From Spinacia oleracea (lineage: Eukaryota; Streptophyta; Magnoliopsida; Caryophyllales; Amaranthaceae), in assembly GCF_020520425.1 (NCBI RefSeq), contig NC_079491.1, forward strand, positions 620,001-684,000: 64,000 nt of DNA, read 5' to 3'. A model generated the notes under the pieces. It ran no database searches and had not been told where the DNA came from. It saw only the letters and a list, made by a program, of their open reading frames with translations. Shown here in pieces: positions 38,990 through 62,463 of this stretch. How positions within the stretch are numbered: the first letter of the stretch is position 1; every line of letters starts with the position of its first letter. The position numbers and the translations under genes were made by a program.

Positions 38990-39300
38990 TTGTGGGCTGG
39001 CCCGACCCGACATATAAAAGCCTGGCCAGGCACGGGCATGAAAAAAAGCAAAGCACGACCCGTCATGAAGCCGTGGGCTGGACTTGGGCCGTATTTTTTG
39101 AAAAAGCACAAGATACGTCACGACCTGACATATAAAAGCCTGGCCAGGCACAGGCATGAAAAAGCACGACCCGGTACAAAGCAATGGGCCGGGCTTGGGC
39201 AGCATTTTTTTTGGAAAAAGTACCACAAGGCATGACTCGACTCGGCACACTAAATATGTAAAACTAGGCTTAGGCATGATGGCCCGGCCCGGCCCAACCA
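38990..39300. repeat. GC-rich dispersed repeat, copy 1
   Basis: Much more GC-rich than its surroundings, with repeated GGGCTGG, GGCCAGGCA, GCACGACCC and a GGCCCGGCCCGGCCC end. The unit AAGCCTGGCCAGGCAC.GGCATGAAAAA occurs twice inside. Copies of the same family lie at 41515-41765 and 62640-63430. Likely a non-autonomous DNA transposon; the class is not determined. Confidence 0.6.
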
Positions 39301-39403
39301 AAATCCTCTATACAATATTCTGCAGAGGATCTCAAAACGACAATACAGGCTCTCTTATCCAGATTACTACAGTCTACAGGTTACTGTGAACCACAACCGC
39401 AGC

Positions 39404-41344
39404 ATGAACATCACCACCTTCAAACCTCCTGTACATCTCACACTCACTTCTACTCCAAATTTCCCAGAAATCTCAAACTGCAAAACCATTAAACAATTTA
39501 GGCAAATCCATGGCAAATTAATTAAAACTTCGCAAATCCATGACCCTCTTATGTCTGCTGAACTCGTTAGGTGTTCCGCCTTTTCACTCCGAGACCTCGA
39601 CTATGCTCGTCTTCTGTTCTACCGCATGAACCAACCAAACCCCTTTTCATACAACACCATTATCAGAGCCATTTCTGAGGATGAAGATGATCCAGTTGAG
39701 GTTTTGTCTATTTTTACCCTTATGTTGTGTGATGAGTTTCTCTCTCCTAATAAGTTCACTTACCCTTCTGTTCTCAAAGCCTGTGCTAAATTAAGAGATT
39801 TGGTAGTGGGTAAGCAGGTTCATGCCCAGTTGGTGAAACTGGGATTGGAAGATGATGAGTTTGTTGTTAGCAATCTTTTGAGGATGTATGTCTTGTGTGG
39901 GATCATGGATGATGCTCAATTATTGTTTTTTCAAAGAACTTTGCATGATAATCGTACTGTAAATCGTGATGGGTTTCTGGGTATGGATGGTGTTAGTAAG
40001 AGGAGACAAGAAGGTGATGTAGTTTTATGGAATGTAATGGTTGATGGGTATATCAAACTCGGGGATATGAGAGCTGCACGCCAACTGTTTGATAAAATGC
40101 CTAAGAGAAGTGTGGTTTCATGGAATGGAATGATTGCTGGCTATGCTCAACGCGGTTGGTTTAGCGATGCAATTGGGGTTTTTAGAGAGATGCAAATGGT
40201 GGATGAGAATGTTAAACCAAATTATGTGACATTGGTTAGTATTCTTCCAGCAATTTCTCATTTAGGTGCACTTGAATTAGGCAAATGGATTCATTTATAT
40301 GCTGATAGAAATGGTTTTAACATTGATGATGTTCTTGGTTCTGCACTGATTGATATGTATTCCAAGTGTGGTAGTGTTGACAAAGCACTCCAAATCTTTG
40401 AAACCCTTCCAAAACAGAGTACCATTACATGGAATGCTGTTATTAATGGGCTCGCTATCCACGGCCGTGCAACCGAGTCTATTCAATACTTCACAGAAAT
40501 GCTAGAAATGGGGATCAAACCTAGTGATGTCACCTACATTGGTGTTTTAACTGCATGTAGCCATGGTGGAAAGGTGAATGAAGGTAAAAGGTTCTTCAAT
40601 CATATGATAAAGGTAGCTGGTTTAAACCCTAGGATTGAACACTATGGTTGCATGGTTGATCTTTTAGGCCGTAACGGGCTCTTAAAAGAAGCCGAGAAAT
40701 TCATACGCGACATGAACATGAAACCCGATGCTGTCATTTGGAAGGCCTTGTTAGGTGCTTGTAAGTTACATAACGACATCGAAATGGGAAGAAGAGTAGC
40801 TAAACATCTAATGGAAATGGCTCCTTCTGATAGTGGATCATATATTGCTCTTTCAAATATGTATGCAAGTTTAGGAGAATGGGATGAAGTTGCTCGAATT
40901 AGGTTATTGATGAAGGATAGAGACGTGAGAAAAGATCCCGGTTGTAGCTGGATCGAGCTCGATGGAGTTATCCACGAGTTTCTCGTAGAAGATGACTCGC
41001 ACCCTTGTGCTAAGGAAATCCATTTGATGTTGAAGGAGGTTTCTGACAAATTACAGTCAATAGGTCATCAGCCTAATACTACACAGGTTTTGCTTAATGT
41101 GGATGAAGAAGCAAAAGAAAGTGCCTTGTATTATCACAGTGAAAAGATTGCTGTTGCATTTGGGTTAATCAGTACAAAGGCTCAAACACCACTTCAGGTG
41201 GTTAAGAATCTTCGAATATGTGAAGATTGTCATTCATCGATGAAACTGATCTCGAAATTGTACAACCGGAGGATTGTTGTCAGAGATCGGAAGAGGTTCC
41301 ATCATTTTGAGGATGGATTGTGTTCTTGTAATGACTTTTGGTAA
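39404..41344 (+). CDS. LPA66: DYW-class PPR RNA-editing factor, LPA66-like
   Basis: Intronless, 646 residues starting MNITTFKPPVH. A longer frame runs upstream, but the first ATG is at 39404. PLS-type pentatricopeptide repeats fill residues of about 30-480 (for example VVSWNGMIAGYAQRGWFSDA, ITWNAVINGLAIHG). E and E+ motifs follow, then a DYW deaminase domain with the zinc and catalytic signature H578-S-E580 and C606-E-D-C609-H. It ends in DFW instead of DYW. Length and wording of most repeats match Arabidopsis LPA66 (At5g48910) as I remember it; that protein edits the plastid psbF transcript and supports photosystem II assembly. The psbF site was first described in spinach. N-terminal targeting to plastids is expected but the peptide is not distinctive. 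GC-rich repeats flank the gene on both sides. Confidence 0.8.
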   Translation: MNITTFKPPVHLTLTSTPNFPEISNCKTIKQFRQIHGKLIKTSQIHDPLMSAELVRCSAFSLRDLDYARLLFYRMNQPNPFSYNTIIRAISEDEDDPVEVLSIFTLMLCDEFLSPNKFTYPSVLKACAKLRDLVVGKQVHAQLVKLGLEDDEFVVSNLLRMYVLCGIMDDAQLLFFQRTLHDNRTVNRDGFLGMDGVSKRRQEGDVVLWNVMVDGYIKLGDMRAARQLFDKMPKRSVVSWNGMIAGYAQRGWFSDAIGVFREMQMVDENVKPNYVTLVSILPAISHLGALELGKWIHLYADRNGFNIDDVLGSALIDMYSKCGSVDKALQIFETLPKQSTITWNAVINGLAIHGRATESIQYFTEMLEMGIKPSDVTYIGVLTACSHGGKVNEGKRFFNHMIKVAGLNPRIEHYGCMVDLLGRNGLLKEAEKFIRDMNMKPDAVIWKALLGACKLHNDIEMGRRVAKHLMEMAPSDSGSYIALSNMYASLGEWDEVARIRLLMKDRDVRKDPGCSWIELDGVIHEFLVEDDSHPCAKEIHLMLKEVSDKLQSIGHQPNTTQVLLNVDEEAKESALYYHSEKIAVAFGLISTKAQTPLQVVKNLRICEDCHSSMKLISKLYNRRIVVRDRKRFHHFEDGLCSCNDFW

Positions 41345-43438: not shown

Positions 43439-43443
43439 ACAAG
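43439..43443. repeat. target-site duplication ACAAG, left copy
   Basis: The pentamer ACAAG directly abuts the left LTR and recurs at 55019-55023 after the right LTR, as expected from integrase. Confidence 0.9.
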
Positions 43444-43868
43444 TGTTCCGGTGTTGTAAAGATGGAAACAATGGGCTTCGAATGAAGGCCCTTTTGTATG
43501 TGTTGAAGATCTTGCTTGTTTGAATGAGTGGAATCCGAATTCACCTGCACAAGAGCAAAGTCACTAGCCTCGGGGGTGTTTCCGAGGAAAGCCCCTCCGA
43601 TGCCTAAGTAAGAATGATGCTCGGATTCTAGAGAGAAGTTCTCTAGAAGAGTAGTCTTAAGGCGGTAAATTCGACGTACCTTGAGGTGTGAGCCTTGGCG
43701 GCCTATTTATAGTGTTTGCATAATAAATGCCCATAGGTCATTTATTGTTATTGGGCCTTGGGCCTTAATGGATGGCTGAATAGCCATTGGTAGGTTTGAT
43801 GTTGTTGTTTAGAGCCATTGGGCTTTGGACTTAGTGGCCCAATTGAGAATCAATTGGGAGCCCAAACA
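43444..43868 (-). repeat. LTR (3' LTR in the element's orientation)
   Basis: A 425-bp terminal repeat starting TGTTCCGG and ending CCCAAACA (TG...CA). It matches 54594-55018 at every base I compared. Confidence 0.95.
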
Positions 43869-43870
43869 AC

Positions 43871-43880
43871 ATGCCCCCCA
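43871..43880 (-). other. polypurine tract
   Basis: On the minus strand TGGGGGGCAT lies two bases before the downstream LTR, the usual site for plus-strand DNA priming. Confidence 0.7.
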
Positions 43881-44046
43881 GACCCGGTCCATTTAGAATT
43901 AAATGGGTGGGTTTCCAGCTGTCAGAAGTCTGAAAGTTCCCTCTCTTTTTTGAAAAGGGATGATTTGCATTGATGACAAGTGTTGGGAGTTGTATTGTGC
44001 CGTGGAGATCGTGGGTTGAGGAAGTTGATGCGCCCCTTTTCTTTTC

Positions 44047-44054
44047 TATAAATA
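44047..44054 (+). promoter_or_regulatory. TATA box of the antisense gene
   Basis: TATAAATA on the plus strand, 255 bases before the start codon at 44309. A likely 5' UTR intron (44227-44291, AAG|GTAATT...CCCTAG|) lies between. It is separate from the LTR TATA, which faces the other way. Confidence 0.6.
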
Positions 44055-44308
44055 CGGGGTGCATTGCTCTTTTCGAACTTTTTACTCCTTCTTTCAGACC
44101 CTTTCTCTCTCTAAATTCCGGCGATCGCAGTGCAATTTGCTTCTTCAGATCTACGAAATTCGGCCAACTTTAGACTTCGGGAACTTGTGTTGTTCGTTTT
44201 ATCGGCGAATTCCGCTTCGGAAAAAGGTAATTTGTTTCTGAATTCTCCTTTTTTCTTCGTTTTTCCTTCTACCCCTCAATCTCAACCCTAGACCGAGAAT
44301 TCGCGGCC

Positions 44309-47300
44309 ATGGCAAAGAATAGGGGCAAGAGCAAGTTCGTCGTTGGCTCCTCTAGTGAGAGGGAGAACGTGCCCTGGGGAAGGTTACCGAAAACTTCGAG
44401 GGGTCGGCCTTCAGAGAGGCCAGTGGAGAGGCGTTCGACTGGTTGGGATGCTTCGAAAGATGATGTTGTTGGCGGGTCTAGCGTGTCTGAACGCGCAACT
44501 TCTGGTAAAAAGGCTGGCTCTTCGGGTGTGCGCCGCTCCTACCCTGAGTTTCCAGTTCATTGGACTGAAGCTGATCCGCAGGGCAAGTATGCCCCGATTC
44601 TGCATGAGACCACTAAGATCGATGGTCCCTTGGAAAAATCGGTCAGTGGTGACTGGTTGGTGGAGGCGAAGCTGGGGCATTACCATCGGAGGGCCGAAGA
44701 GTTATACGGAATCCAGCACGCCTTGGGGTACTGGTGCGAGCTTCCCGACCAGGAGCGTCCTCGGGTGACTCATCCGCCGAGGGGGTTCATCTCTGTGTAT
44801 ACTCATCATTTGGAGAACGGCCTCCGCTTTCCTTTGGATCCCTTCGTATCCGAGCTCCTGGTGTCGTACAACATCAGTTTGGCCCAGCTTACCCCCAAAT
44901 CTATGAGGCACATCATCGGATTTAGATGGGTGTGCGATTTTATTAACTTTCCATGCTCTGTTGCCGTGTTTCGGGATCTGCACGATCTGTCTTTCAACCA
45001 CGCTTCCAAGGGGGATGGGTATGGTTGGTGGACCATTATCAACAAAAGATCCCGAAGAAAGGGGGAGCCGAACTATATTACGGCCTACCCTTACCTCAGC
45101 TCTGATCATAACTGGAAGACGGAGTGGTTGTTCGTCCGTGTGCCGACAGATCCGAAGCATCCACATTTTTACCGCCCTCCGAAGTGGTTTGTGACTCCTG
45201 ATCCTGATATGCGAAGCGTGGCTGCTCCGGATCGGAACCATCACCACTACGTGGATCTCCTCCAGTGGTTTTTGGCTCGGGAGGACAACTACAAATTGCC
45301 GTCGAACTGGCTCCCGAACCTCAACTATATCTTGCGGGAGGACATTCTTGCTGTTGCCGGTCTCAGCAGGATTTTTGACAGGGGTAGGTGTCTTTCGGCT
45401 GGGACCGTGCTTTTAGTAAGTTTGTCCTCCTCCTTTTTGGTCTCGTTTTACTGATTTCGTTTTGTGCTTTGTTTCTGCAGAGTACGGCTTTAGCTGCGTT
45501 GATCCTGTGGTCTTGGGTATTTCTTTGGATCTGAAGACCATTCACGACTCGGCCCCTGATTATAAGTTCGGGAAGGAGAATCCTCGTAATCCTCGTTTGA
45601 AGGATTACGTGCTGTCTCCGTCGGGTGTTGCTCGGATATCTGAAGTTCGAGCTGATCCGTGGGATTCTGCCTCTTCTCCCGAAGCTGTTCCAGTGAAAGT
45701 CGTGCTCCCTGATTTGAGGACAACCTCGGATCCGGTGAGTGTTTCTAATCTCGAAGTCTTTTGTTTGTCTTTCTTTTTGGTTGGCCGTCGGCTAACGTCT
45801 TGGTCCTGGACCATCTTTTTAGGGTCCTGGGACTGACGCTGTGCCGCGTGCCGTTCCCTCGGTTTCATCTCCGGCTCGGATAGATATCTCTTTATCTAGG
45901 AACCGGGTACTTCGCGATTTTTCTTTATTCCTTCCTTTGTCTTGTTTTACATTTATTGACCCTTGGTTTCTTCTGTTTAGGATCAGCGCAAAAGGAAGAG
46001 CAGCACTCTTTTGAGGCCTTCTGCGCATCCGAAGAAGGCGAAAGCTGATCAGTCTTCGGAGAAGGTATTTGTTTTGACTTAGAGCTTTTGTGGTCTGTTC
46101 TCTCTTTTTCTGAAACTGACCTTTGAGCGTTTGCCCTGTAGGAAGTGGTTTCGGAAGTCATGCCTCCTCCCAAAAACCTCCTTCACTTCATGCCCTTGCC
46201 CGGGCAGAAGTTGAAGAGTGTGGTGGTTGTGGAACCGCCTCCCGTGGACCAACCGCTGGCTGAGGAAGATACCATCCCTTCTCCGCTGAAGCCGTCTGCT
46301 GCTTTAGGGATCGAGATCCAGGATATAACCAAGGTGATGGAGGCAATTGAAGCCGACCTTGTTCTTGGCTCGGATGTCCCTATTGTGGCCGAGCAGAAGG
46401 AAGAAGCTGCTGACGTTTCTCTCGAAAGGGAGAAAAGTCCGGATAAGGAGATGGTGGATCTCACCGAAGCTCACGTAGAGGTTCCCGAAGCTGAGAAGGA
46501 GGAACCCGAGCAGGGTCTGACGAGGAAGAGGCGTCATTCGACCTTGGGCTCCACTTCGACCTCGGCCCTGGATAGACTGATCCACGCTGACCCTTGCTCG
46601 GATGTTCCGCTGAAACGGATCCCCGAGGAGGTAAGGGAGGCGATGGCTCGCTATGCCAGAGCTCCGGTTTTGGGGGAGAACCCCATGGCTCACGTGGGAT
46701 CTTTGGTGGGTCCCGAAGCTGCACGGGAGAATCTTCTTCGGGCCAACCCGCAGTGGAGGGTTCCTGGAGCTGAGGAGAGGAACCCAGCTATGATGGCCCA
46801 ATATTATCTGAATGAGGTAAGTGTTGGAAATTTTGTTTTGAGTTCCGTTTTTTTTTTGGTTTGTTGTTTTCTTCTTTCCTCATCTTTTCTCGTCCTTTCT
46901 TCTTTCCCAGGCTGTTTTCTGGTCCTCGTTCGCTTCCGAGTGTAGCTCGGTTGAGGAAAGGCAGCTGAGGAGGTATCAGGAGGCTTATGCTCGTGATATC
47001 CCTGTCTTGGACCAGAAGGCTGGGCAGCTCATGGCCGAGATGGTGGACCTCAAGCAACTGTACCTTCAGTACAGTCGTGAGGCTAGGGAAGCGGCGGAAC
47101 AGATCGGGGCCGAAGTTGGGAAGCTCACTTTCCAAGTTGAAGAGGATGCTGAAAAGATAGCTTCCTTCGACAGGGAGAGGAGAGAAATGGCTGCCAAGTT
47201 TGCGAGCGAACTTGAAGAAAAAGACAGTCTTCTCAAGGAGATGACGTCTAAATTTGAGGCGGCCATTAAGCAGAGCCAGGAAGCGGAGGCGAGGCTTCAG

Positions 47301-47711
47301 CAGTTTATCAAGCACCGGGAGATTGTTCAGAATCAAGCTGACAAGGTGCCCGTTCTCCAGCTGAAGATCCGAGAGAAAGATGCTGCCATTCGGAAGTTGG
47401 AGCAAGAGAGAGTTGACCTCTACACTGCTGATCAGTGTAGAGAGCAATACTGGAATGGCATCCTGGGTGCTCGGCGGATGTTCGCGAAGCATATGCCTCA
47501 TTTCCCTTGGAATGAGAAGGTTCCGCTCTGGATGAGGGCCCAGGATCACTTGGTGGAGTGCCAGGCCGATCGAGACGAAGCTGAAGCTGAACGCCAAGCT
47601 GCTCTTGCAGAGGCTCGGGCCCAGAAGGCGGCTTCCGAAGGTGATACTACTGCTGGGGGTTCTTCGAAGGATGCTCCTCTGGGGGATGCTCCTGAGACTC
47701 CCAAGAGCTAG
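44309..47711 (+). CDS. antisense gene of the Tat element (gypsy-type transposon / Transposase_28-like protein)
   Basis: Six exons on the strand opposite gag-pol: 44309-45383, 45481-45734, 45823-45906, 45981-46064, 46142-46816, 46911-47711; 2973 nt, 990 residues. All five introns are 74-97 bp and GT-AG. ATG sits in GGCCATGGC. Residues 1-75 are basic and Ser-rich. Exon 1 then carries the conserved region with FPLDPFVSELLVSYNISLAQ and IIGFRWVCDFINF, typical of plant proteins annotated 'putative gypsy type transposon' (Transposase_28). The middle is acidic and Pro-rich with KRKSS and RKRRHS basic patches. Exon 6 is a long Glu/Lys/Ala coiled coil. No catalytic motif was found. Such antisense ORFs are known from Tat elements; their role is unknown. 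A gag-like or regulatory DNA/RNA-binding role is speculation. Confidence 0.8.
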
Positions 47712-47944
47712 GGATTCGGGCAGTCGTCTTCTTCAGAGTCGGTCGGTTCCAGTTGAGGACTTCCGAACATGTGCTTGCCTTTCCCCCTTTTGCCTCGGCG
47801 CTGCGTTGTACTTATTTCTTTTTTGTTTTCTTTAGTACTTCGGTAGGCCGGTATTGTCTGTTGATGGCTGCCGATTTTAACTTGTTTCATTTTGTTTTCA
47901 ATTTTTGAGGTTTTTCGATGTATTTGTACTTCCCCCAAATATTG

Positions 47945-47950
47945 AATAAA
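47945..47950 (+). terminator. poly(A) signal of the antisense gene
   Basis: AATAAA on the plus strand, 234 bases after the stop codon at 47711, in a T/A-rich context. Confidence 0.5.
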
Positions 47951-48009
47951 AAATGAATGTTTGTTACTTGGCTGCTTCTTTTCAACTTGTTCTTTCGCAA
48001 TTTTTAGGT

Positions 48010-48405
48010 CTTTAAATCCGTAGATTTCTCGAGCTCCTCTTTCTGTAGACTTGCTAAAAACCTTTTGATCTTGCGAGCTCTTTAAATCCGTAGATCTGTT
48101 AAGAGACTTTTTAACTTTTGCGAGTTCTTCAAATCCGTAGATCTGCTAAGAGGCTCTTTGACTTTGTGAGTTCTTCAAATCCGTAGATCTGCTAAGAGAC
48201 TCTTTAGTTTTGCGAGTTCTTCAAATCCGTAGATCTGCTAAGAGACTCTTTAGTTTTGCGAGTTCTTCAAATCCGTAGATCTGCTAAGAGACTCTTTAGT
48301 TTTGCGAGTTCTTCAAATCCGTAGATCTGCTAAGAGACTCTTTAGTTTCCAGACTCTTCAAATCCGTCGATCTGCTCAGAGGTTTGGATTGTTCTTCCGA
48401 TCTCT
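48010..48405. repeat. 46-bp tandem array between the converging genes
   Basis: The word TTCAAATCCGTAGATCTGCT recurs with an exact 46-base period at the four central steps (base before AAATCC at 48130, 48176, 48222, 48268, 48314), then 45; outer copies are more diverged. About seven to eight units. It lies between the stop of the antisense gene and the stop of pol. Variable tandem arrays in this position are known from Tat/Ogre elements. Confidence 0.92.
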
Positions 48406-48769
48406 TGTGGTTCGGAAACCTGGGCAAGAGATCGCTAGTCTGCCTCTTTAGTTATGCCTTCGGCGATCCGTGGATCTGAGCCGGAGTTTTATAACTTGAT
48501 TCGAGCGACTGTTTGTTGCGAACAAATTTTATTAGGGTACCGCGAATCCGAGGATTCTGGACGGTTCCCTGAAGTGTATGATTTGGTCATTTCTTGCATT
48601 TTATCAAGGAATGGGCAAAGTCAACCTGTTTTTAGTCTCGGATTGATCAGATCCGAGGCTGCAGATATATATAAAGGGACAATAATTATAGAGATAAGTT
48701 TAATGAAACACATGGTGCCAATGGCTTTCCTCTTCTCATTAAACAACTTACTTGGTTTACAGACAGAGA

Positions 48770-51700
48770 TCATACAAAATATTTCTTGAGAACATCGGTA
48801 TTCCAATGGTTCTTCAGGATTGTTCCATCTAACTGTTTCAGCATATACGTGCCTGGCCTTTTTTCGGAATGGATGATGTATGGTCCTTCCCAAGTGGCTG
48901 AGAGTTTGCCATGGATTTGTCCTTTCTGAACCGAGGCGGCGTTTCTGAGTACTAGATCACCGACTTTTAGAGGTCTGGCGTTGACTCTTCGGTTGTAATG
49001 CTTGTTGACCCTCTGCAAATAGGCTGCGTTGAGTGTCCTTGCATCGTTCCGAGCTTCGTCCAGTAGATCGAGAGCTTCGGATAGAAGTTGATTGTTGCTT
49101 TCTCCTTGGAGCCCATCATATCTGTTGTATGCCTGGATCCTCAGGCTTTCTGTTCCGATTTCCACAGGAATTACAGCTTCGGATCCGTATACAAGGTGGA
49201 ACGGTGTTTGTCCGGTAGCTTCTTTTTCAGTGGTCCGAAGGGACCATAGCGTTCCGGGTAGCTCTTCTAACCATTTGTTTTTGTCATCCTCGACTCTTTT
49301 CTTGAGTGCGTTGAGGATGAGTTTGTTAGCAGCTTCGGCTTGCCCGTTGCTTTGTGGGTGACAGACTGCCGAGTACGCTAGGTGTATGCCGAACTGTTTG
49401 CACCACTTTTGCAACGGGGTGTTGTCGAACTGTTTCCCGTGGTCGAAGACCATCAGTCTTGGTATGCCGAACCTTGTGATGATGTTCTGCCATATGAACT
49501 TGCGGACCTGAGGTTCGGTGATGGAGGAGACAGCTTCGGCTTCGATCCATTTGCTAAAATAGTCGACTCCTACAATCAACCACTTCTTCTGGTTCGTCGC
49601 TGAGGGGAAGGGACCAATGATGTCTAACCCCCACTGTGCGAATGGTAAGGGATACAGTGTTGATTGTAGGGTTTGAGCTGGTTGATGGATGGCTGGTGCG
49701 AACTTTTGGCATTTCTCGCATTTCCTTGCCATCTGCTTTGCCTCGGAAACCATAGTGGGCCACCAGTACCCAGCCCGAAGGGCTTTATGTGCTAATGTCC
49801 TACCTCCAATGTGGTTTCCGCATATCCCGAGGTGGATTTCCCTTAGGATGTAGTCAGCGTCTGTTGGACCCACACATTTTAGCAGCGGAGCAGAGAATGA
49901 TTTCCTCATGAGCTCTCCTTCGGCGCTGATGATGAACCATCTGTTGAATCTTTTCAGTTTTCTCGCTTGCAGCTTATCTTCGGGAAGTTCTCCCCTTTCT
50001 TTGTATGCAACTACTGCGTCCATCCAGCTAGGTTCGGTACGTAAGCTGCATACTGTGGTGGGTAGCAAGTCGATGCTTCTCTTTTGGTGAACTTCCACGT
50101 GGACCGACCTGTTTAGGTCGATGAGTGTTGAGCTTGCGAGTTTTGACAGTGCGTCTGCTTGCGTGTTCTGTCCTCGGGGAATGAGGATGACTTCAAAGGA
50201 TCTTAACTTTGACGTTAAGGATTTAATTTTTGCTAAATAGGCTGTCATGCTGGGCCATTTGGCCTCATACTCCCCTCGGATCTGGTTGGCTACAAGCTGG
50301 GAATCAGTTTTGAGGCGAACATGTTCGGCCTCCAGGGATAAACAAAGCTCTATCCCTGCGATTGCGGCCTCGTATTCGGCCTCGTTGTTGGTTGCTTTGA
50401 AGCCGAACTTCAATGCATACTCTATGCTTTTCCCCGTCGGGGGGATCAGTACAACTCCTGCCCCTGAGCCGTTTATTGTGGAAGATCCGTCAGTGAAGAC
50501 CTCCCAAGTGCTTTTCGTATCATCCAACATTTCCTGGTATGAGCATTCGGCCAAGAAGTCTGCCAATGCTTGTGCTTTGATTGCTGTCCTCGGCTGATAT
50601 TTGATGCCGAACTCTGATAGTTCGAAAGCCCAGGCAGCCAATCTTCCTGACCTCTCTATTTTGTCGAGTACTTTTTCGAGCGGTTGGTCAGTTAGCACCG
50701 TGATCTGGTGGGAGTCGAAGTATGGCCTCAGTTTTCGTGCAGCTACCACTACTGCATATGCGACTTTCTCGATGAGTGGGTACCGGGTTTCGGCCCCTGT
50801 GAGTGTTCGGCTGGTGAAGTAGATTGGCTGTTGCTTCTTTTCTTCTTCCCGAAGAAGCACTGCGCTGACGGTTCCAGGGCTAACTGCGACATATAGGTAC
50901 AGGGTTTCCCCCTCTTTTGGTCTGGCCAGTGTCGGCAGTTGAGCTAGGTGGGCTCTGAGTTGCTGAAAAGCTTCTTTTTGCTCCTGTTCCCATATCAGTT
51001 CGGGATCCACTTTCCTCGGGACCCCTTTTTTCTTGACTGGTTCTGTTTCTCCTCCGGGGAGGTTCTTTGGTTTCAGTGCTTTGAAGAAGGGGGCTCCCTT
51101 ATCCGAGGCCTTTGATATGAACCTTGTTAGTGCGGCTAACCTGCCGGTTAGCCTCTGCACATCTCTCTTGGTCTTCGGCTCGGGTAAATCCAATGCCGCT
51201 TGGACTTTGTCCGGGTTCGCATCAATTCCTCTTTCGCTCACCATGAATCCGAGGAATTTACCTGACTTCACCCTGAAGACGCATTTTTTTGGGTTCAGCT
51301 TCATGTTGTGCTTCCTCAGGTTTCCGAAGGTCTCTGCCAAGTCTTTGACATGGTCTTCCTCCTTGATGCTTTTTACGATGGTTTCATCCACGTAGACCTC
51401 CACATTCCTCCCTTTCTGGTCGGCGAAGACGTGGTCAACTAACCTCTGGTAGGTGGCTCCGGCATTTTTCAAGCCGAAAGGCATCATTTTGTAGTTGAAC
51501 ACTCCTGCGCTTGTGATGAACGCTGTCTTTGCCCTGTCATCGGGGTGCATGAATACTTGGTGGTAGCCTGAAAAGGCATCCATGAAGCTGAGCAGTGCAT
51601 GGCCGCTGGTGGAGTCAACCAGTTGATCTATCCTTGGCAGGGGATAGCAGTCTTTGGGGCAGGCTCGGTTCAGATCTGTGAAATCTACGCACATTCGCCA

Positions 51701-54523
51701 TGAGCCGTTCGCTTTCTTGACCATCACCACGTTGGCCAGCCACTTCGGATACATGCATGGTTCGATGAATCCGGCCTCTTGCAACTTTTTAACCTCCTCG
51801 GCGATGGCTTTGTTTTTCTCCGAGGAGTAATTTCTCTTTTTTTGCTTGATTGGCCGAGCTTCAGCGTTGACATCCAGCTTGTGACAAATCAGCTTCGGAT
51901 TTATCCCTGGCATATCTGCTGCTGACCATGCAAAGATGTCTTTGTGATCCCTGAGTAGTCGGATCAAATCGATTCGGAGCCCCGAGCTTAGGCCCTTGCC
52001 TATTCGGACGCTCCTGTCTGAATTATCTTCGAGGAAGATATCCTCCATTTCTTGATCTGGTTCGGGAGATGGGGTTTCGGGGCGGGCATCAACTTCTGCG
52101 GGAGACAAGCTGCTCGTGCTTGCTCTTCTCCTTTTTGCCTCGCTTTCCTCTCCCTTAGCTCCCTTTCCTTCCTCGGGGCCGTCCTCCAATTTGGGTTTTC
52201 GGACAGCAGTGTGGCAGGTTCTTCTCGCCACTTCTTGATCACCTCTGATTCGTTCGGCGAATCCTGCATCCGAGACGTATATCATCAGCTGGTGGTATGT
52301 GGAGGGGACTGCTTGCATCTTGTGAATCATGGTTCTCCCCATGATTACGTTGTATACGGAGTCGCAGTCCATCACCAAAAATTCGTCCCGAAGGGTTTTT
52401 GCTGCCTGGCCTTCGCCCACTGTGACTGGCAGGGTGATCTTTCCTCGAGGGATAGCTGCGGATCCGTTGAATCCGATCAGAGGATAACTGACTTTCGTCA
52501 GTGCTTCCTCTGGTTCTTCGAGGATCAGCTGCTCGAAGCAGTTTCTGAAGATGATGTTGACGGCACTTCCTCCGTCGACTAACACTCGATGTACGTTGTG
52601 GTTGTTGAGGTCCATGGAAATGACCAGAGGATCGTCATGTTTGTACTGGACTCCGAAGCAATCATCAGCAGTGAAGGTCATGTTCGGGGGGTGTGGTTGG
52701 TTGTCTCCAACCGCGCTGAAGTTGACCCGATGGGAGAGGGCTCTTAGGTGTTTTTTGCTGGCCTGGCCAGACTTCTGTCCCCCGAACACCACTAGGATGT
52801 CATTTTTCTTGTGCCCTGTTGCTTCGTAGACCCTTTTCTGGGGTTGCTCGTGTTGTTTGCCGCTTGCGGCCTTTTCTTTTTCCTCCCTTCGGTCTAACAA
52901 GTACTGTTTCAGGTAGCCTCGGCGAACGAGGTCCTCAATGTTGTCTTTCAGCGAGTTGCACTCTTCGGTATGGTGACCGAAGTCATCATGGAACTCGCAC
53001 CACTTGTTCTTGTTTCTCCGAGCTGGGTTGGACTTGAGCTTCCCCGGTAGTTTCCACTTTTCATCATTTCTGTTGAGGCTAAATATCTCTTTTCGGGGCA
53101 GAGCTAGTGGAGTGTAGTTGGTGTATTTGGGTTGAAGTTCACCCCTTCTCCCGTCTTTCTTCGGGCTCATCTCTCTAGCTCCTACTTTCTCTTTCCCTTT
53201 CCTTGAGCCGCCCTCGGGCTTGCTCTGGTTATTCTTTGTGTCTCTCGGATCTGACGATCCCTTCAATCTTGCAGCGGCCTTGTTGAACTCTTCGGTTCTG
53301 ATGAACGCATCGGCCATTTGGAGCACGTCAGCTATTTTGGAGGGGTTCTTCATTGAGAGTTCGTCACGGAACTTCCCTTCCTGGAGCGCGTGCTTCAAGG
53401 CGAAGATGGCCACGTCTGGCTGCAAGTTTGGTATGTTTGTTGATTCCTTCATGAATCTGGCCATGAATTCTCTCAGACTTTCGTCTCTTTCTTGTTGGAT
53501 TGAGGTCAGTTCTGCTGTGGTTCGCTCGGGGCGATTGTTGCTCACGAACTGTGTGCAGAATCTCTTTTTCAGCTTTTTCCAACTCTTGATCGATCCCTTC
53601 GGCAGCGATCTAAACCACTCTCCCGCCACTCCGGTTAGCGTGGTTGGGAAATATTTACACCAGCATGCTTCGGAGTAGGGACTCAAGAACATCTGCTGCT
53701 CGTAGGAGATGACATGATCCCTCGGATCTGTGATTCCGCTGTAGGTTAGGTGAGCTGGCAGTCTTACCTTCGGTATTTCTTCCATGATCAGCTCGTCCGA
53801 GAAAGGGGATGACGTAGGAGTCATGATTCTTTTCCCGAGTCTAGCCCTGATGCCTTCGTTTGCCGAGGCTCTGTGATTAGAACGTTCGGGCGTACGATGG
53901 GGGCTAGGGGTTCGATCATGCCTCCCGTCTCTTCTTCTTTCTCGGCTACTGACCTCGGGTCGCTCGCCAGATCTGCTCGACTCACCTACCCCGAGTCTCG
54001 TATGGATCGAAGGTCTTAACCTTGAGTGGACCGAGGGCCTCAACCTGCTGAGTACCGAGCTTCGGATCCGAGGATTACGAGTAGTTGATTCGCTTTGGAG
54101 AGCTGTTGGAGTAGGCGATGGTCTCGCAAACCAATCTGGTTGCTGTTGTGCCCTTTTTTGGGTGTCCCACGTGCTTTCCATCCACCTCGACGTCAAGTGT
54201 GTACCTGTCAAGGGAAGGAGTTCTCGTTCGGGTCTGGACACTTCCACACTGGGTGGCTCGTTCAGCCTTCGCCTGGTCCTCCTCTCTTCTCTGCGGTCAT
54301 TTGCCAGTCCTTGCTGCTTCTCATTGAAGAGGAAGTTTTGCATGATGGTCATGGCCGCAGTGAGCTCTTCCCTAGTTGGAATCGGAGGTCCTGCATTTGT
54401 GGCGGTCGTAGCTCTGCTTGGCTGTGACCTCGCCATCGATTGAGGGTGCCCCTCTTGGTCAGATTCTGAATCTGACCGCACCATCATATCGTCGTCATTG
54501 TTGTTAACAACATCGTTCACCAT
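48770..54523 (-). CDS. gag-pol polyprotein of the Tat element
   Basis: One frame of 1917 codons without interruption. The open frame extends further into the LTR, but the first ATG after the primer-binding site is at 54523. Order: gag core (WFRSLPKGSIKSWKKL, about 300), a Cys/His knuckle-like CEFHDDFGHHTEEC (about 510), aspartic protease (VLVDGGSAVNIIF, about 645), reverse transcriptase (about 880-1150), LTR-type RNase H (YFTSRTLTGAETRYPLIEK), a second RNase H with FTDGSS, NEAEYEA, TDSQL and QADALSK (about 1340-1470), integrase with a zinc-finger H-H-C-C region (about 1565-1610) and D, D, E positions in GLDIIGPF, VFDHGKQF and GQAEAANK. The RT active-site motif reads Y-V-D1046-E1047, where YVDD is expected. 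All other catalytic positions looked for are present. Confidence 0.93.
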   Translation of the reverse strand: MVNDVVNNNDDDMMVRSDSESDQEGHPQSMARSQPSRATTATNAGPPIPTREELTAAMTIMQNFLFNEKQQGLANDRREERRTRRRLNEPPSVEVSRPERELLPLTGTHLTSRWMESTWDTQKRAQQQPDWFARPSPTPTALQSESTTRNPRIRSSVLSRLRPSVHSRLRPSIHTRLGVGESSRSGERPEVSSRERRRDGRHDRTPSPHRTPERSNHRASANEGIRARLGKRIMTPTSSPFSDELIMEEIPKVRLPAHLTYSGITDPRDHVISYEQQMFLSPYSEACWCKYFPTTLTGVAGEWFRSLPKGSIKSWKKLKKRFCTQFVSNNRPERTTAELTSIQQERDESLREFMARFMKESTNIPNLQPDVAIFALKHALQEGKFRDELSMKNPSKIADVLQMADAFIRTEEFNKAAARLKGSSDPRDTKNNQSKPEGGSRKGKEKVGAREMSPKKDGRRGELQPKYTNYTPLALPRKEIFSLNRNDEKWKLPGKLKSNPARRNKNKWCEFHDDFGHHTEECNSLKDNIEDLVRRGYLKQYLLDRREEKEKAASGKQHEQPQKRVYEATGHKKNDILVVFGGQKSGQASKKHLRALSHRVNFSAVGDNQPHPPNMTFTADDCFGVQYKHDDPLVISMDLNNHNVHRVLVDGGSAVNIIFRNCFEQLILEEPEEALTKVSYPLIGFNGSAAIPRGKITLPVTVGEGQAAKTLRDEFLVMDCDSVYNVIMGRTMIHKMQAVPSTYHQLMIYVSDAGFAERIRGDQEVARRTCHTAVRKPKLEDGPEEGKGAKGEESEAKRRRASTSSLSPAEVDARPETPSPEPDQEMEDIFLEDNSDRSVRIGKGLSSGLRIDLIRLLRDHKDIFAWSAADMPGINPKLICHKLDVNAEARPIKQKKRNYSSEKNKAIAEEVKKLQEAGFIEPCMYPKWLANVVMVKKANGSWRMCVDFTDLNRACPKDCYPLPRIDQLVDSTSGHALLSFMDAFSGYHQVFMHPDDRAKTAFITSAGVFNYKMMPFGLKNAGATYQRLVDHVFADQKGRNVEVYVDETIVKSIKEEDHVKDLAETFGNLRKHNMKLNPKKCVFRVKSGKFLGFMVSERGIDANPDKVQAALDLPEPKTKRDVQRLTGRLAALTRFISKASDKGAPFFKALKPKNLPGGETEPVKKKGVPRKVDPELIWEQEQKEAFQQLRAHLAQLPTLARPKEGETLYLYVAVSPGTVSAVLLREEEKKQQPIYFTSRTLTGAETRYPLIEKVAYAVVVAARKLRPYFDSHQITVLTDQPLEKVLDKIERSGRLAAWAFELSEFGIKYQPRTAIKAQALADFLAECSYQEMLDDTKSTWEVFTDGSSTINGSGAGVVLIPPTGKSIEYALKFGFKATNNEAEYEAAIAGIELCLSLEAEHVRLKTDSQLVANQIRGEYEAKWPSMTAYLAKIKSLTSKLRSFEVILIPRGQNTQADALSKLASSTLIDLNRSVHVEVHQKRSIDLLPTTVCSLRTEPSWMDAVVAYKERGELPEDKLQARKLKRFNRWFIISAEGELMRKSFSAPLLKCVGPTDADYILREIHLGICGNHIGGRTLAHKALRAGYWWPTMVSEAKQMARKCEKCQKFAPAIHQPAQTLQSTLYPLPFAQWGLDIIGPFPSATNQKKWLIVGVDYFSKWIEAEAVSSITEPQVRKFIWQNIITRFGIPRLMVFDHGKQFDNTPLQKWCKQFGIHLAYSAVCHPQSNGQAEAANKLILNALKKRVEDDKNKWLEELPGTLWSLRTTEKEATGQTPFHLVYGSEAVIPVEIGTESLRIQAYNRYDGLQGESNNQLLSEALDLLDEARNDARTLNAAYLQRVNKHYNRRVNARPLKVGDLVLRNAASVQKGQIHGKLSATWEGPYIIHSEKRPGTYMLKQLDGTILKNHWNTDVLKKYFV

Positions 54524-54572
54524 TTTCGCGGAAAGAGGTGATTGATGTCTTTCAAAGGCTTTGAAGTGTTCT

Positions 54573-54590
54573 TCCCCACAGACGGCGCCA
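54573..54590 (-). other. primer-binding site
   Basis: On the minus strand TGGCGCCGTCTGTGGGGA starts three bases after the LTR. TGGCGCCGT is complementary to the 3' end of plant tRNA-Asp (ACGGCGCCA); the rest matches imperfectly. Confidence 0.75.
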
Positions 54591-54593
54591 AAT

Positions 54594-55018
54594 TGTTCCG
54601 GTGTTGTAAAGATGGAAACAATGGGCTTCGAATGAAGGCCCTTTTGTATGTGTTGAAGATCTTGCTTGTTTGAATGAGTGGAATCCGAATTCACCTGCAC
54701 AAGAGCAAAGTCACTAGCCTCGGGGGTGTTTCCGAGGAAAGCCCCTCCGATGCCTAAGTAAGAATGATGCTCGGATTCTAGAGAGAAGTTCTCTAGAAGA
54801 GTAGTCTTAAGGCGGTAAATTCGACGTACCTTGAGGTGTGAGCCTTGGCGGCCTATTTATAGTGTTTGCATAATAAATGCCCATAGGTCATTTATTGTTA
54901 TTGGGCCTTGGGCCTTAATGGATGGCTGAATAGCCATTGGTAGGTTTGATGTTGTTGTTTAGAGCCATTGGGCTTTGGACTTAGTGGCCCAATTGAGAAT
55001 CAATTGGGAGCCCAAACA
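54594..55018 (-). repeat. LTR (5' LTR in the element's orientation)
   Basis: A 425-bp copy with no difference seen from 43444-43868. On the minus strand it contains TATAAATA (54861-54854), the likely promoter for genomic RNA. TSD ACAAG follows at 55019-55023. Confidence 0.95.
54854..54861 (-). promoter_or_regulatory. LTR TATA box
   Basis: TATAAATA, then GG, on the minus strand inside the upstream LTR; it faces gag-pol. Confidence 0.6.
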
Positions 55019-55023
55019 ACAAG

Positions 55024-56219
55024 TAAAGGAGCTGAATACATAATTGGATCCCTCAAATCATATGGTACGGACTACGGAGTTCACAAATGAGTGGAAGAGA
55101 AAGGTTCATATCAATGACCCAGGAGATCACACCATACACCGTTGTCCACGAATTCAGATTCTAATTAATATACCCACTAATTCTTTTGGTGTACAGAGAA
55201 TTGCAAATAATACTGACAAGATTTGGTCGATCTCAGGTCTTGGATACCAACTCCCTAACAGAATAATAAGCCAATTACACGAACTAAGGACATACTTTGA
55301 CTCACATTTAAATCCAAATAGATTTCCTCGAAATTAATTTCATGTTCGAAGTGTAAAACTGTAACGTGACAACTAATTCTGGACAGATATATCGGAGATA
55401 GTACATTACAAATTAAAGAATCTAAGTCCATTGCTTGAGCCAGCTTTTGTTGTTCTAATAAATTGATGAAAAACTTACAGAACCGACTAAGGAGTCAGCA
55501 GATGGTATATGTATTTACATTTAGCAGTATGTAGTTTTAATGCATCCTCAACCAACCTGTCATTTTCTTCTTCAACTATCTTAATTTCATCAACTATAAC
55601 AAATACCAACATTTATATCTCATTGCCTTTTTAAGTCATTATTATTACTTCATTTCTATTTCATCAATATATATATATGTATATCCCATACTTTTTATAT
55701 ATGTTATTACTTCATATAGTAGTAGTTCATACTTCATACTGTCCACATTCATCCCACTTCTTGTAAACTTTTGATCCTTCTCTTTGTCTTTTGCTTCTTT
55801 TAGGATGGTTTTTTTTTAATTTATCTGTATTTTCGCTTGTTTGTTACTCCGTAAATGGTTTCATGCATTGCTATATCAGTATAGTTGGGTTTTTGTTGAT
55901 TATTATATGTATCCTTGTTGATTAGCTAAAACTGTAAACCAAGAAAAGACGGAGGAAAATAAGGTTAAGCAAAATGTGTATGATAATGGATTAAATATTT
56001 TAGCTTTAAATTATGTATTGCTCAAATACCATCAACCTTTCAGACTTTCACCAACTCCATTAAATGTTCATAATTAAAATGTTAGTCTGTATTCTCCACT
56101 GCAATTATTTATTATCATAATTATGGCTACATATATAAATTTTGATTCTTTATAGAAGTAGTATGTTTCTTGTGATATAGTAACATAGTTAAGGTTATTG
56201 ATATACAGATAATATAACA
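55024..56219. other. intergenic / upstream region of the LACS gene
   Basis: No gene could be supported. One open frame at 55044-55337 has no recognisable domain. The rest is AT-rich and probably holds the LACS promoter and 5' UTR. Confidence 0.4.
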
Positions 56220-59200
56220 ATGAAGAAATTTTCAGCACAAATTGGTAGTGGAAGAGATGGACATGACGGCAATCCGGCCGTGGGCCCCATCTATCGGAAT
56301 CTTCTCTCCAAGAATGAATTTCCACCTCCTCACCCTGATTTGTCTACTGCTTGGGATTCCTTCAGGTACTTTTTTTCGTTTTGTTCATACTTTAATTCTC
56401 TGTTTTTTTTACTCTGAAGTTTCTCAATTATGTTAGTTTTTGAATTTGATGCAACCTTTTGCAGTCATTTTAGTAGTATATCTTGTACTCAGTATAAGAT
56501 TGTTTTATGGTACGGAGTAAGACATACAAGTATTTGTTGTGTCACGATACATTTAGCTTAGTTTTATGGTACGGAGTAAGACATATTTGTTTGTGTCACG
56601 ATACACTTAGCTTAGTTTTATGGTACGGAGTAAGACATATTTGTTTGTGTCACGATACACTTAGCTTAGTTTCATGGTACAGGGTAAGACATATTTTGTG
56701 TCACGATACATTTAGCTTAGTTTTATGGTACGGAGTAAGACATATTTGTTTCTGTCACGATACACTTAGCTTAGTTTTATGGTACGGAGTAAGAGATATT
56801 TGTTTCTGTCACGATACATTTAGCTTGAATCTTATGAGACGACTTTTATTGAGAAATGACGTGACAATAATTCGGCTTTGGTTATGTAGGCTCTCGGCTG
56901 AGAAGCATAAAGGAAATAAGATGTTGGGTTGGCGTGAAATGGTTGATGGCAAGGTGTGTAACATTTCATAGAAGTGCATAATTTGATGGATTTATTACTT
57001 ATTAGTGCCTTGTATACTAATTGTTTTGGGTGAAAATGTTAATTAGTGGGGGCCTTATATCTGGAAAACATACAAGGATGTCCATGATGAAGTTCTTCAC
57101 ATTGGTTCTGCTTTAAGAGCATGTGGAGCTCATCCTGTAAGCTAGCAAATCTATATACTTCATATATTAATTTGACTTAATTTTACATGAAAAGTTCAAC
57201 ATTCTTGATTACAATTGTACTTTTTTGGTATAGGGTGCAAAGATAGGAATATATGGTGCTAATTGTCCTCAATGGATTATGGCTATGGAGGTTTGTTGTA
57301 TATATAACAAAAAAGAATTTCCTTACAGTTTTCAGTAGTTTGTTTATGAGTATTATATTTGTAACTAAATGATTTCATATGTGTATGTATAGGCTTGTAA
57401 TGCTCACAGTTTGATATGTGTTCCTCTCTATGATACCTTAGGTAACAACTCTTCTTTTACTCGAATATAGTTTCTTGAAAGATTACACAATTGATCATGC
57501 TGAAATTAAAGTATTGTTATGGTCATTAAATCAGGTGCTGGTGCTATTGATTACATAATTGATCATGCTGAAATTGATTATGTTTTTGTCCATCCCCTTA
57601 AAGTTAAAGAAGTAAGTACATCTTCCTCCTATACTCATATGTGTTTGTTCTTTGTTTAGAGGTTAAATTTCATATGTTGCCTGTGTTTTCTGTACAGTTA
57701 CTCAACCCTGATTGTTCCTCCACTAAACGGCTAAAATGTGAGGATGCATTCTTCTAACTCTGGATTAATTTGTCTGTTTAAACGAAATGAAACACGTTAA
57801 CCAATTAACATGTTGGATTTAATATGACATTGCAGCGATTATTTGTTTTACATCATTCACTGAGGAAGCAATTCAGGAGGCTGGTAATGCAGGGATAGAG
57901 GCGTACTCATGGAATCAGTTCCTTCATATGGTCAGATTATATGTACTAGAACCTTGTTTTTCACCTGTGTTCTTAATTTTCAGCTGTTCTGATTATTTTT
58001 CTTGTGTTTAAATAGGGCAAGGAAAATCCATCAGAAACAGCTCCTCCACAACCAATCAATATTTGTACAATAATGTACACAAGTGGCACGTGTGGAGATC
58101 CGAAAGGTGTTGTTCTAACACATGAAAACATGGCAATGTTTATAAGTGGAATGAACGTTTTCATGGACCAATTTGAAGACAAGGTAACCAACCCAACAAT
58201 GCTATTACTGGAATATTTGCTACTTTATCATATAAATGGAGTAATTAACTATGTATCTTGAACAGATGACGGTTGATGATGTGTATCTATCATTCCTTCC
58301 TTTGGCTCATATATTAGATCGCGTAATAGAAGAGTATTTTTTCCATAAGGGTGCTTCTGTTGGCTTCTTTCATGGGGTATTTTCCTGTTTTTTCATACAA
58401 TATGAAAAGATTTTCTGCTATAATATTGCACTTTTTCTGATTGTTGTTGATTTGTGCAATGAAGAATGTAAAAGAAATCAGTGAAGATCTAATGGAGTTA
58501 AAGCCAACTTTTTTCGCTGGTGTACCTAAAGTTTTTGACCGTGTATATGAAGGCATGTCCTTAATTATACTTTGTCTTCTCTGTAAAGTTACCAATGTAT
58601 TTCTGCTAATAGTGTGTTTATCAGGCATACAGAAGGCTATTGAAGATCTTATTCCTCGAAGGAGGAAGATTTTTCACCTTCTTTACAAATAGTAAGCTGT
58701 TCATATTTTAGCTTCCTGTCAAAAGTTTCAAAAAATAACATGTGATGAGAGAATAAGAAACTCATAAATTACAGTACTAAATCTTTATCTTTGTTGAAAT
58801 GCAGCAAATTATTCTGGATGAATCGAGGGTACGTCAACAAGCATGCATCCCCTTTAGCCGATTTCCTAGCTTTCAGGAAGGTTATTACCTAACTTTGATC
58901 TCTATTTCACATTCTAATCTTATTTGTGTTTCAACTTTGATCTTCAGAAAACTCTCCATCATGTTATTACAGTGCTTCATGTGTTTTAACCTGAAAACAG
59001 CTGTATTTATAGTTAATTGTGATACTAAATTACTAATTATAATGCTGCCTTGCTCATAGTGCAATGTTTACACTAAATTTAGGTAAAGAATAAGTTAGGT
59101 GGTAGAGTTCGGCTAATGGTATCAGGAGCTGCACCTTGGAGCGAAGAAGTGGAGGAGTTTTTGCGCGTTACTTGCTGTTGCTATGTACTTCAAGGCTATG

Positions 59201-61032: not shown

Positions 61033-62463
61033 CGGATTTTTCATGAAATGACCCCGAGGTTTGCGTTAATGTACCAAATACCCCTAATGTTTGCCGAATG
61101 CACCAAATACCCCCGACGTATAAAACAATAACACCAAATGCCCATAATGACCATTTTCCGTCCATTCCGTTAAGTCTCCGTTAGCGTGAATTTACTTTTT
61201 TGCCCTTACTCGACCATTTTCTCTACTAATCCTAATATTAACACCTAATTATATTAATTAAACCCAAAAAATTAATTACCTACTATTATTTTTAAAAAAA
61301 AATAAATTGGGCTCATCTTCTTCCCTTCACGACTTCACACCATCAATCATCATCATCATCATCTTCTTCTTCATCTCATCAAATTGCTTCACAATCCTAA
61401 CAAAACTCTCAGCAAATCCCCTCATTTGAGCAACCAATTCACCCATCAAATTCACTCATTTTTCTCTCTCCTCCACAATCTCCTCCTCTTCTTCTTCTTC
61501 TTCCTCCTCCATTTCGTACCCTTCATCCCCTTCTCAATAAATCTTCGTCTTCTTCACCATTTTAGCCAAAAAATGCGGCAAAAATCCCAAACCCTTGTTT
61601 TCTCTTTCATTCCACTCCCACTACAAGCCTGCAAGATGACTCTGACGGCACCAGATCCGCCGACTCCACCGTCTCGCTTTGAGTTCTCTTTGCTCCACTC
61701 CCTCTCCTCTTTAGTCTCTCTCCTTCGACACTTCATTCAAATCCCTCAAATTTCTTAAATTCCAACCTTCAAATTCACTTCCTCTTGTATAACCATTTTC
61801 AATTTCCCTGATTTGGAAAACCCAACTCTCAAATTGAGCGATGTTCTCGCCTCGCAATTTCCCTAAACTCGCGAATCAGACTCCAACTTGTTCTTCGTAG
61901 CTGCACATCATTATTGTTGTTTGTCGTCGATGTCCATTATTATTGGTGTTATTGTTGTTAATGTTGTGGTTGATATTGTAGTTGTTGTTGGTAATTGAAA
62001 TTGGGGGCAACGGATGGATTGGGTTTTTTGAGAGGGTTGTAAGAGAGGGCTTGGATGATGGGAGGGGGTTGCAGTGGTGGGGGGTTGGGGTTTCTGTGGT
62101 GGCGGCGGTAGGGTGGGGGAGAGGGTGGTGTTTGGGGAGGAGAGGATATGGTGGTTTGTTGTGAAGGAATGGGAGAGGAGAGGAGAGAGATTGGGATAAA
62201 AGAGAGGTGGCGGTGAATAGTGGTGGGTGAGGTGAGGTTAACAATGGAGATTGAAAAAGGAAAGAGAAAAACAGAGAGAAAGATAAAGGGAAAAAAAATA
62301 AAAAATAATGTTAACGGAAAAGTTAACGGAATGGACGGAAAATGGTCATTATGGGCATTTGGTGTTATTGTTTTATACGTCGGGGGTATTTGGTGCATTC
62401 TGGAAACATTAGGGGTATTTGGTGCATTAACGCAAACCTCGGGGTCATTTGATGAAAAATCCG
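61033..62463. mobile_element. Mutator-like element with ~150-bp inverted repeats
   Basis: The left arm (61033 to about 61180) and the right arm (about 62315-62463) are near-identical inverted repeats starting CGGATTTTTCAT and including GACCCCGAGG and CCGACGTATAAAACAATAAC. A perfect 9-bp duplication ATAAAAATA flanks it (61024-61032 and 62464-62472). Long arms plus a 9-bp duplication identify a Mutator-like element. The 1.1-kb interior is CT-rich on the left and GA/GGT-rich on the right; it shows open but low-complexity frames and no transposase. It could be a captured gene piece (Pack-MULE), which I cannot confirm. Confidence 0.85.

Follow-up and report, generated by a model that had tools for sequence, protein, structure and literature searches.

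A conserved antisense gene with a predicted six-exon structure in a probable Retand-type Ty3/gypsy retrotransposon of spinach

Does a long terminal repeat (LTR) retrotransposon of spinach carry a spliced protein gene on the strand opposite to gag-pol, and what might the product of such a gene do? We examined this question in a 64,000-nucleotide stretch of Spinacia oleracea DNA (assembly GCF_020520425.1, contig NC_079491.1, positions 620,001 to 684,000), hereafter called the window, whose own positions are used as coordinates. The window contains a young Ty3/gypsy LTR retrotransposon of 11.6 kb on the minus strand (43444-55021). A previous reading of the sequence alone, hereafter the sequence-only reading, had placed a six-exon gene antisense inside this element, and the location was borne out by a gag-pol frame on the minus strand and identical flanking LTRs. 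A real spliced protein gene is almost certainly present at 44309-47711, as judged from comparison of genomic copies. Its exon-intron structure is conserved, and its protein is under purifying selection. A promoter of its own, a nuclear location of the product and a role in regulation are suggested by sequence features and by the precedent of the maize element Grande.

The predicted gene lies on the plus strand, begins with ATG at 44309, ends with a stop codon at 47711 and has six exons. The five GT-AG introns are T-rich, with lengths of 97, 88, 74, 77 and 94 bp and phases of 1, 0, 0, 0 and 0. This model agreed with the sequence-only reading, whose wording was mended to 990 residues plus the stop. 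The two flanking signals named in that reading, TATAAATA and AATAAA, also exist. The features of the gene are listed below, where the aligned copies are the 35 sequences described in a later paragraph and omega is the ratio of replacement to silent change.

44047-44054, plus strand: TATAAATA, probable core promoter of the antisense gene as judged from its sequence; kept in 35 of 35 aligned copies
44227-44291, plus strand: possible intron in the 5' untranslated region; GT at 44227 and AG at 44291, its one line of support, kept in 35 of 35
44309-45383, plus strand: exon 1, with a Transposase_28 (PF04195) domain at residues 163-225; omega 0.17 in the gene frame
45384-45480, plus strand: intron 1, phase 1; codon offset of the donor shared by 24 of 28 loci from three other families
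45481-45734, plus strand: exon 2; omega 0.12
45735-45822, plus strand: intron 2; GT and AG kept in 35 of 35
45823-45906, plus strand: exon 3, from the gene model; changes too few for a selection test
45907-45980, plus strand: intron 3; GT and AG kept in 35 of 35
45981-46064, plus strand: exon 4, with basic clusters RKRK and PKKAK (from residue 474); changes too few for a selection test
46065-46141, plus strand: intron 4; GT and AG kept in 35 of 35
46142-46816, plus strand: exon 5, with an RKRR cluster (residue 627); omega 0.30
46817-46910, plus strand: intron 5; length 76-106 bp among copies
46911-47711, plus strand: exon 6, probable coiled coil (heptad pattern in 2 of 300 shuffles), stop TAG at its end; omega 0.30
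47945-47950, plus strand: AATAAA poly(A) signal; kept in 34 of 35 copies

The coding sequence contained no in-frame stop, compared with a mean of 42.8 (minimum 25) in 500 mononucleotide shuffles. A spliced-gene search with its own splice-site weights returned the same six exons at all three penalty settings. This search was treated as a consistency check only, because its coding composition was trained partly on the same coding sequence. When gag-pol codon usage served as the training set, the gene frame was not clearly singled out. Two other models were discarded. A 925-residue model of the window gene came from a looser first search and was replaced by the stricter one. An alternative in-frame intron 1 (45416-45482) was contradicted by the copies, as 34 of 35 have 31 rather than 32 bases in 45384-45415 and the frame of this alternative would therefore break. 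The extra T in this part of intron 1 was found in the window copy alone among the 35.

We searched the spinach genome (894,210,420 bases) with a 992-bp piece of exon 1. The search gave 749 first-look candidates, of which 40 were scored, at 98-100% identity. We took 38 stretches covering 39 places other than the window, and dropped L010, L033, L036 and L045, in which the gene was not covered in one piece. The resulting alignment comprised the window and 34 copies. One of the dropped stretches, L036, is rearranged, with the same first 1.5 kb present in both orientations.

All ten splice dinucleotides (five donors and five acceptors) were kept in all 35 aligned copies. The six-exon model was intact in 26 of them, the window included, and encoded proteins of 990 (20 copies) or 997 residues (six copies). 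Introns 1, 2, 4 and 5 had length differences not divisible by three; intron 3 was constant in length. At codon positions 1, 2 and 3, 34, 33 and 86 of 991 columns were variable (3.4%, 3.3% and 8.7%). The introns were the most variable class of columns (49/430; 8-16% across the five introns), and 34 of 409 columns varied in the 5' flank.

Omega was estimated from these variants, and the non-coding columns supplied the mutation rates; six variants at codons with multiple changes were not counted. Variants common to at least two copies comprised 47 silent and 18 replacement changes (omega 0.145). Singletons, which include post-insertion changes, comprised 44 silent and 39 replacement changes plus two stops (omega 0.335), and the two classes of variants differed (Fisher p 0.018). 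The gene frame had the lowest omega of the six frames in exons 1, 2, 5 and 6, at the values listed above. The sequence-only reading had staked the gene in part on purifying selection and on splice-site conservation across copies, to be judged by comparing synonymous with non-synonymous change. Both were found, with shared changes mostly silent and all ten dinucleotides kept.

The selection on the antisense gene was compared with that on pol. Seven of the 34 copies, each paired with the window, gave omega values of 0.086-0.126 for the antisense gene. For a piece of pol, covering reverse transcriptase (RT) and part of RNase H, the values were 0.067-0.124 in four copies (324-499 codons; one with a stop). 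Thus, the constraint on the antisense protein is about as tight as that on pol. Synonymous divergence (dS) in these four copies was 0.06-0.10 for the pol piece and 0.02-0.05 for the antisense gene, an approximately two- to threefold difference that may reflect mosaic copies or locally different mutation.

Related antisense genes were identified by a PF04195 search of the genome, which gave 2,698 first-look candidates; 150 were scored and all were over the cut-off. Among 28 places taken, 24 grouped into three families (7, 10 and 7 loci; F1 to F3 below); the other four contain a stop and were not grouped. Exon 1 of these loci showed 22-27% identity to the window (20 of 28 loci aligned). At 24 of the 28 loci, the intron-1 donor GT matched that of the window both in phase and in its distance from a shared Gly-Leu motif; of the remaining four, one carries an altered donor and three gave no match to the motif. 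These loci represent three independent families, not 24 independent cases. A phase-compatible acceptor was present 60-170 bp downstream in 18 of the 24 loci, and unspliced read-through of intron 1 meets a stop within 40 residues in 19 of them.

Exon 1 had a median pairwise omega of 0.205 in F1 (four copies, six pairs) and 0.128 in F2 (eight copies, 27 pairs, one dropped). The median in F3 was 0.07 (seven copies, 21 pairs), which is uncertain as dS is near 1. The ranges in the three families reach 0.43; four untrimmable loci were left out and L054 was not entered. All five F1 loci with enough flank have the pol end downstream of the antisense gene on the opposite strand, the arrangement seen in the window. 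The predicted proteins of the other families also contain lysine/arginine clusters after the domain and ahead of the last exon. A long last exon was predicted by the stricter models at six of eight loci, L048 and L054 being the exceptions. The last exons were clearly alike only between F2 and F3.

Models from the loose search were over-spliced in the other families and were replaced by those of the stricter search. The latter performed poorly at L048, L050 and L054, and its choice of intron-1 donor in F1 and L051 lay downstream of the conserved one. Because these models were poor or shifted, only the intron-1 donor, which is independent of any model, was used as cross-family splice evidence. 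At L051 (3947-4792) and also at L050, both of family F2, the other strand matches gag-pol residues 604-888, between gag and RT, rather than the pol end. F2 is possibly a family without RT and integrase in which the antisense gene has been retained.

We also looked for intronless copies. A query of joined exons 2-5 gave 524 candidates, of which 40 were scored; among the 158 matches obtained, the best covered 95 of 288 bases, and no listed match extended more than a few bases across a junction. With up to three mismatches allowed, no match to the exon 5-6 junction was obtained. This result is compatible with an mRNA distinct from the RNA that is retrotransposed, and is no proof of splicing. It also fits, among the copies scored, the proposal of the sequence-only reading that antisense orientation protects the introns. 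They would persist in the element because the retrotransposed RNA is the other strand and has no splice signals for them.

The host element was characterized by its terminal and coding features, which are as follows.

43444-43871, minus strand: 3' LTR, 428 bp, identical to 54594-55021
43872-43885, minus strand: polypurine tract, GGGTCTGGGGGGCA, adjoining the 3' LTR; labelled by eye from the sequence
48064-48381, no strand assigned: 46-bp tandem array, 6.9 units, between two convergent 3' ends; unit number varies among copies
48770-54856, minus strand: gag-pol open frame, 2028 codons from stop to stop, with gag, RT, RNase H and integrase domains
54594-55021, minus strand: 5' LTR, 428/428 identical to the other LTR; sequence resembling a primer-binding site, TTGGCGCCGTCTGTGGGG, directly inside

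The sequence resembling a primer-binding site (TTGGCGCCG...) directly follows the 5' LTR; this label and that of the polypurine tract were assigned by eye, and both are in the expected places. No match to an aspartic protease family was obtained at E <= 1 in the two pieces scanned. The pol end (48770) is separated from the 3' LTR (43871) by 4,898 bp, and the antisense gene sits in this interval. The host is probably a Retand-type (Tat lineage) Ty3/gypsy element, and its antisense gene corresponds to the antisense TRP28 gene already described for Retand elements. An antisense Transposase_28 open reading frame (ORF) lies between pol and the 3' LTR, and the lengths of the LTR and of the POL-3'LTR interval are within the ranges for Retand elements in the available text of PMC11963269 (315-1,194 bp and 2,933-6,566 bp, respectively), which lists gag, AP, RT, RH and INT domains.

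The window family is probably 'Spinacia oleracea 1' (54 copies) in Table 1 of that paper, as far as sizes and layout, rather than sequence, can be compared. The LTR is 425 bp there and 428 bp here, the internal region 10,719 and 10,722 bp, and the POL-3'LTR interval 4,850 and 4,898 bp; both have an antisense TRP28 and one tandem array. The survey in PMC11963269, as available to us, demanded identical insertion-site repeats. The window copy has the identical LTRs of a recently active Retand element (PRARE) but lacks such repeats: ACAAG (43439-43443) is present on the left and AGTAA (55022-55026) on the right. If a few bases are taken to have been trimmed from the end of the 5' LTR, AACAAG is found at both edges of the element. 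The unmatched repeats may stem from aberrant integration or recombination.

We next consider the predicted product. The 990-residue protein has one Pfam domain, Transposase_28 (PF04195; residues 163-225, E 6.7e-10). No other domain was found at E <= 1, and no retroviral replication domain was detected. The N-terminus is basic, with 18 lysine or arginine and 11 acidic (D+E) residues in 90 amino acids. Basic clusters are located at residue 474 (RKRKSSTLLRPSAHPKKAKA) and at residue 627. The heptad pattern of the last exon, matched by few shuffles, points to a coiled coil. Matches of the last exon to NCBIfam models (best E 0.0006, far under the model's cut-off) were taken as coiled-coil background. 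Among viral contigs, 14 pattern matches were obtained and none was confirmed. The domain and the basic N-terminus that the sequence-only reading had proposed were recovered, and its coiled coil is probable.

As a whole, these results are best explained, in our moderately confident view, by an antisense accessory gene that forms its own RNA polymerase II unit and encodes a regulator of its own element. The gene would be transcribed from the promoter at 44047, just inside the 3' LTR. Its five, perhaps six, small introns would be spliced, and the transcript would be polyadenylated near 47945, ahead of the tandem array. The product may enter the nucleus via its basic clusters, self-associate via the C-terminal coiled coil, and act on the DNA or chromatin of the element to regulate it. 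That the product is a nuclear regulator of its own element has about an even chance of being correct, on the basis of the sequence and of analogy.

Genomic RNA must extend to the 3' LTR for reverse transcription. It therefore contains the complement of the whole antisense gene, and the two RNAs can thus pair over the full exon length. The sequence-only reading had restricted such pairing to transcripts with overlapping 3' ends; this was wrong, and it is the part of that interpretation that fell. Pairing would make small-RNA silencing a built-in risk, and we speculate that an anti-silencing protein would answer it.

Several observations weigh against the interpretation as an accessory gene for a regulator. 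The 3' flank was as invariant as the coding positions (15 of 352 columns variable, unexpectedly low, with many gap columns), and the intron divergence of single pairs (0.022-0.027) was not above the dS of the gene (0.021-0.056). The neutral rates are therefore uncertain. The opposite-strand frame that shares its wobble positions with the gene had the second lowest omega (0.29, 0.19, 0.42 and 0.34 in exons 1, 2, 5 and 6), only slightly above the gene frame in exon 6; this frame contains 15, 3, 6 and 11 stops in the respective exons of the window. The gene is broken in nine of the 35 copies, and two of the singleton changes create stops. The aligned copies were drawn from the closest matches, after four of the 38 stretches had been set aside; having common ancestry, they are not independent samples. 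No homology could be detected between the last exon of the window family and those of the three other families. A sequence search of the PDB gave nothing below E 0.35, and thus no relative of solved structure. A single-sequence structure model of residues 82-358 was useless, with a mean predicted local distance difference test score (pLDDT) of 34. DNA binding by TRP28 is only a prediction in the available text of PMC11963269.

Tandem arrays bear on one of the alternatives and were compared at one locus per family in the four families. In all four, an array was located 231-517 bp past the predicted stop codon of the antisense gene, with units of 46 bp x 6.9 (window), 101 bp x 7.7 (F1), 103 bp x 2.0 (F2) and 174 bp x 6.2 (F3). 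The units of the families have only short words in common. The window array and the F2 array (L051 3304-3508) have overlapping 9-mers in common, which imply GTTTTGCGAG and may be due to chance. The array motif was also considered as an element-wide recognition site, and a match with two mismatches at 44146 looked suggestive. This candidate was set aside, as the counts outside the array were within those of shuffles in five of six scans. Only L052 exceeded 30 shuffles (four sites and a maximum of three, respectively), and one of its four sites is beside the array.

Four other explanations were weighed. The product may be a replication or particle factor that travels with the virus-like particle or preintegration complex and has, for example, a part in nuclear entry or in choosing the target. 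The basic clusters and a strength of selection similar to that on pol are compatible with this role, and nuclear entry is raised in the available text of PMC7264820. However, the gene lies outside gag-pol behind promoter-like signals of its own, and no retroviral replication domain was found in its product; we regard this explanation as rather unlikely. It is improbable that the product is an anti-silencing factor that recognizes the family-specific array behind its gene, like VANC in VANDAL DNA transposons. The position of the array in four families, the variable unit number in the window family, and the conserved exon 1 with a divergent last exon would suit such a factor. In contrast, array words elsewhere in the elements mostly stayed at shuffle level, the F2 array has merely 2.0 units, PF04195 is the sole domain found, and approximately half of the recent Retand elements published in PMC11963269, as far as its text was available, have no array.

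A third possibility is that the RNA itself matters: the transcript would pair with genomic RNA and feed small interfering RNA or dampen reverse transcription, and the protein would be incidental. The anatomy of the element, in which genomic RNA carries the complement of the gene, allows this, and the antisense RNA of Ty1 provides a precedent (PMC12786077, available in part). However, selection acts on amino acids, and the introns are the most variable columns, which makes this possibility very improbable. That chance open frames and splice-like sites occur here without any gene is hardly credible. Long frames are present on the opposite strand as well (236, 191 and 314 residues), but the selection and the conservation of frame and splice sites in the copies and other families speak against chance at the level of sequence.

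The arrays also invite a wider comparison. VANC proteins recognize rapidly changing tandem motifs in their own transposons, according to the portions of PMC5735166 and PMC10398659 available. As in VANDAL, the accessory protein here would be encoded by the element, its gene bears introns, and tandem repeats are present in the non-coding DNA of the element, which change rapidly in VANDAL (PMC5735166). Unlike here, VANDAL is a DNA transposon in which binding and methylation loss were demonstrated (PMC5735166); our comparison is one of sequence. If Retand elements encoded a spliced, nuclear, array-recognizing protein that protects or regulates its own family, with a conserved Transposase_28 head, a fast-changing tail and an array of its own, they would be the LTR-retrotransposon counterpart of VANC systems. 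The gene would then stay intron-bearing over long times because it is antisense. We consider this extension improbable.

The accessory-gene interpretation has precedents, and the locus is less novel than the sequence-only reading implied. Antisense ORFs with TRP28 were reported in 97% of clusters of recent Retand elements, with DNA binding predicted (Vicient 2025, PMC11963269, partial text). Gene23 of maize Grande (GENE23, Gomez-Orte 2013, as cited in the available part of PMC7264820) was reported to have its own promoter and a nuclear product. By description, it resembles the gene here in being antisense and between pol and the 3' LTR. The authors of PMC7264820 call for examination of antisense and spliced transcripts. 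ORF2 of 15 common-bean Ty3-gypsy families (PMC4093653) is likewise antisense between pol and the 3' LTR, and some carry an SMC-like domain. Unlike the gene here, each is listed with one ORF2 size (211-939 residues), and the word 'intron' is absent from the text available. The introns known in Ogre are in the sense transcript (PMC6317226, in the part available), and are distinct from those of the antisense gene here.

The survey in PMC11963269 used ORF Finder, and 'intron' is absent from its main text as available; here, the pieces are exons of one 990-residue gene. A term search of PMC11963269, PMC6317226, PMC4093653 and PMC11728184 gave no introns described for antisense TRP28 genes. More broadly, we found no such description in the literature covered, a scope that leaves out the Grande and Steinbauerova studies. 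Within the literature accessible, the conserved multi-exon structure of the antisense TRP28 gene appears to be the new part.

This structure matters for a widespread class of genes. Antisense TRP28 domains are abundant in this genome and, according to the available published text, present in almost every cluster of recently active Retand elements. Should these genes be spliced, ORF surveys that ignore splicing may report a single protein as a TRP28 ORF plus separate coiled-coil ('Smc') ORFs, and a protein expressed from a cloned genomic ORF would be truncated. From the exon map, the probable full-length product can be read.

Other features were noted in the window. A 54-bp tandem array of six units is located at 56502-56826, approximately 1.5 kb outside the element. 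An inverted repeat (61033-61173 and 62323-62463) has 141-nt arms that are 97% complementary, lie 1,149 nt apart and contain short internal repeats; it looks like a small DNA transposon. A 696-codon open frame at 39254-41344 (plus strand) encodes PPR repeats and a DYW deaminase domain, a combination seen in RNA-editing factors of plant organelles. HSP70 and DUF724 domains are encoded by open frames at 8016-8816 (minus strand) and 32765-33601 (plus strand).

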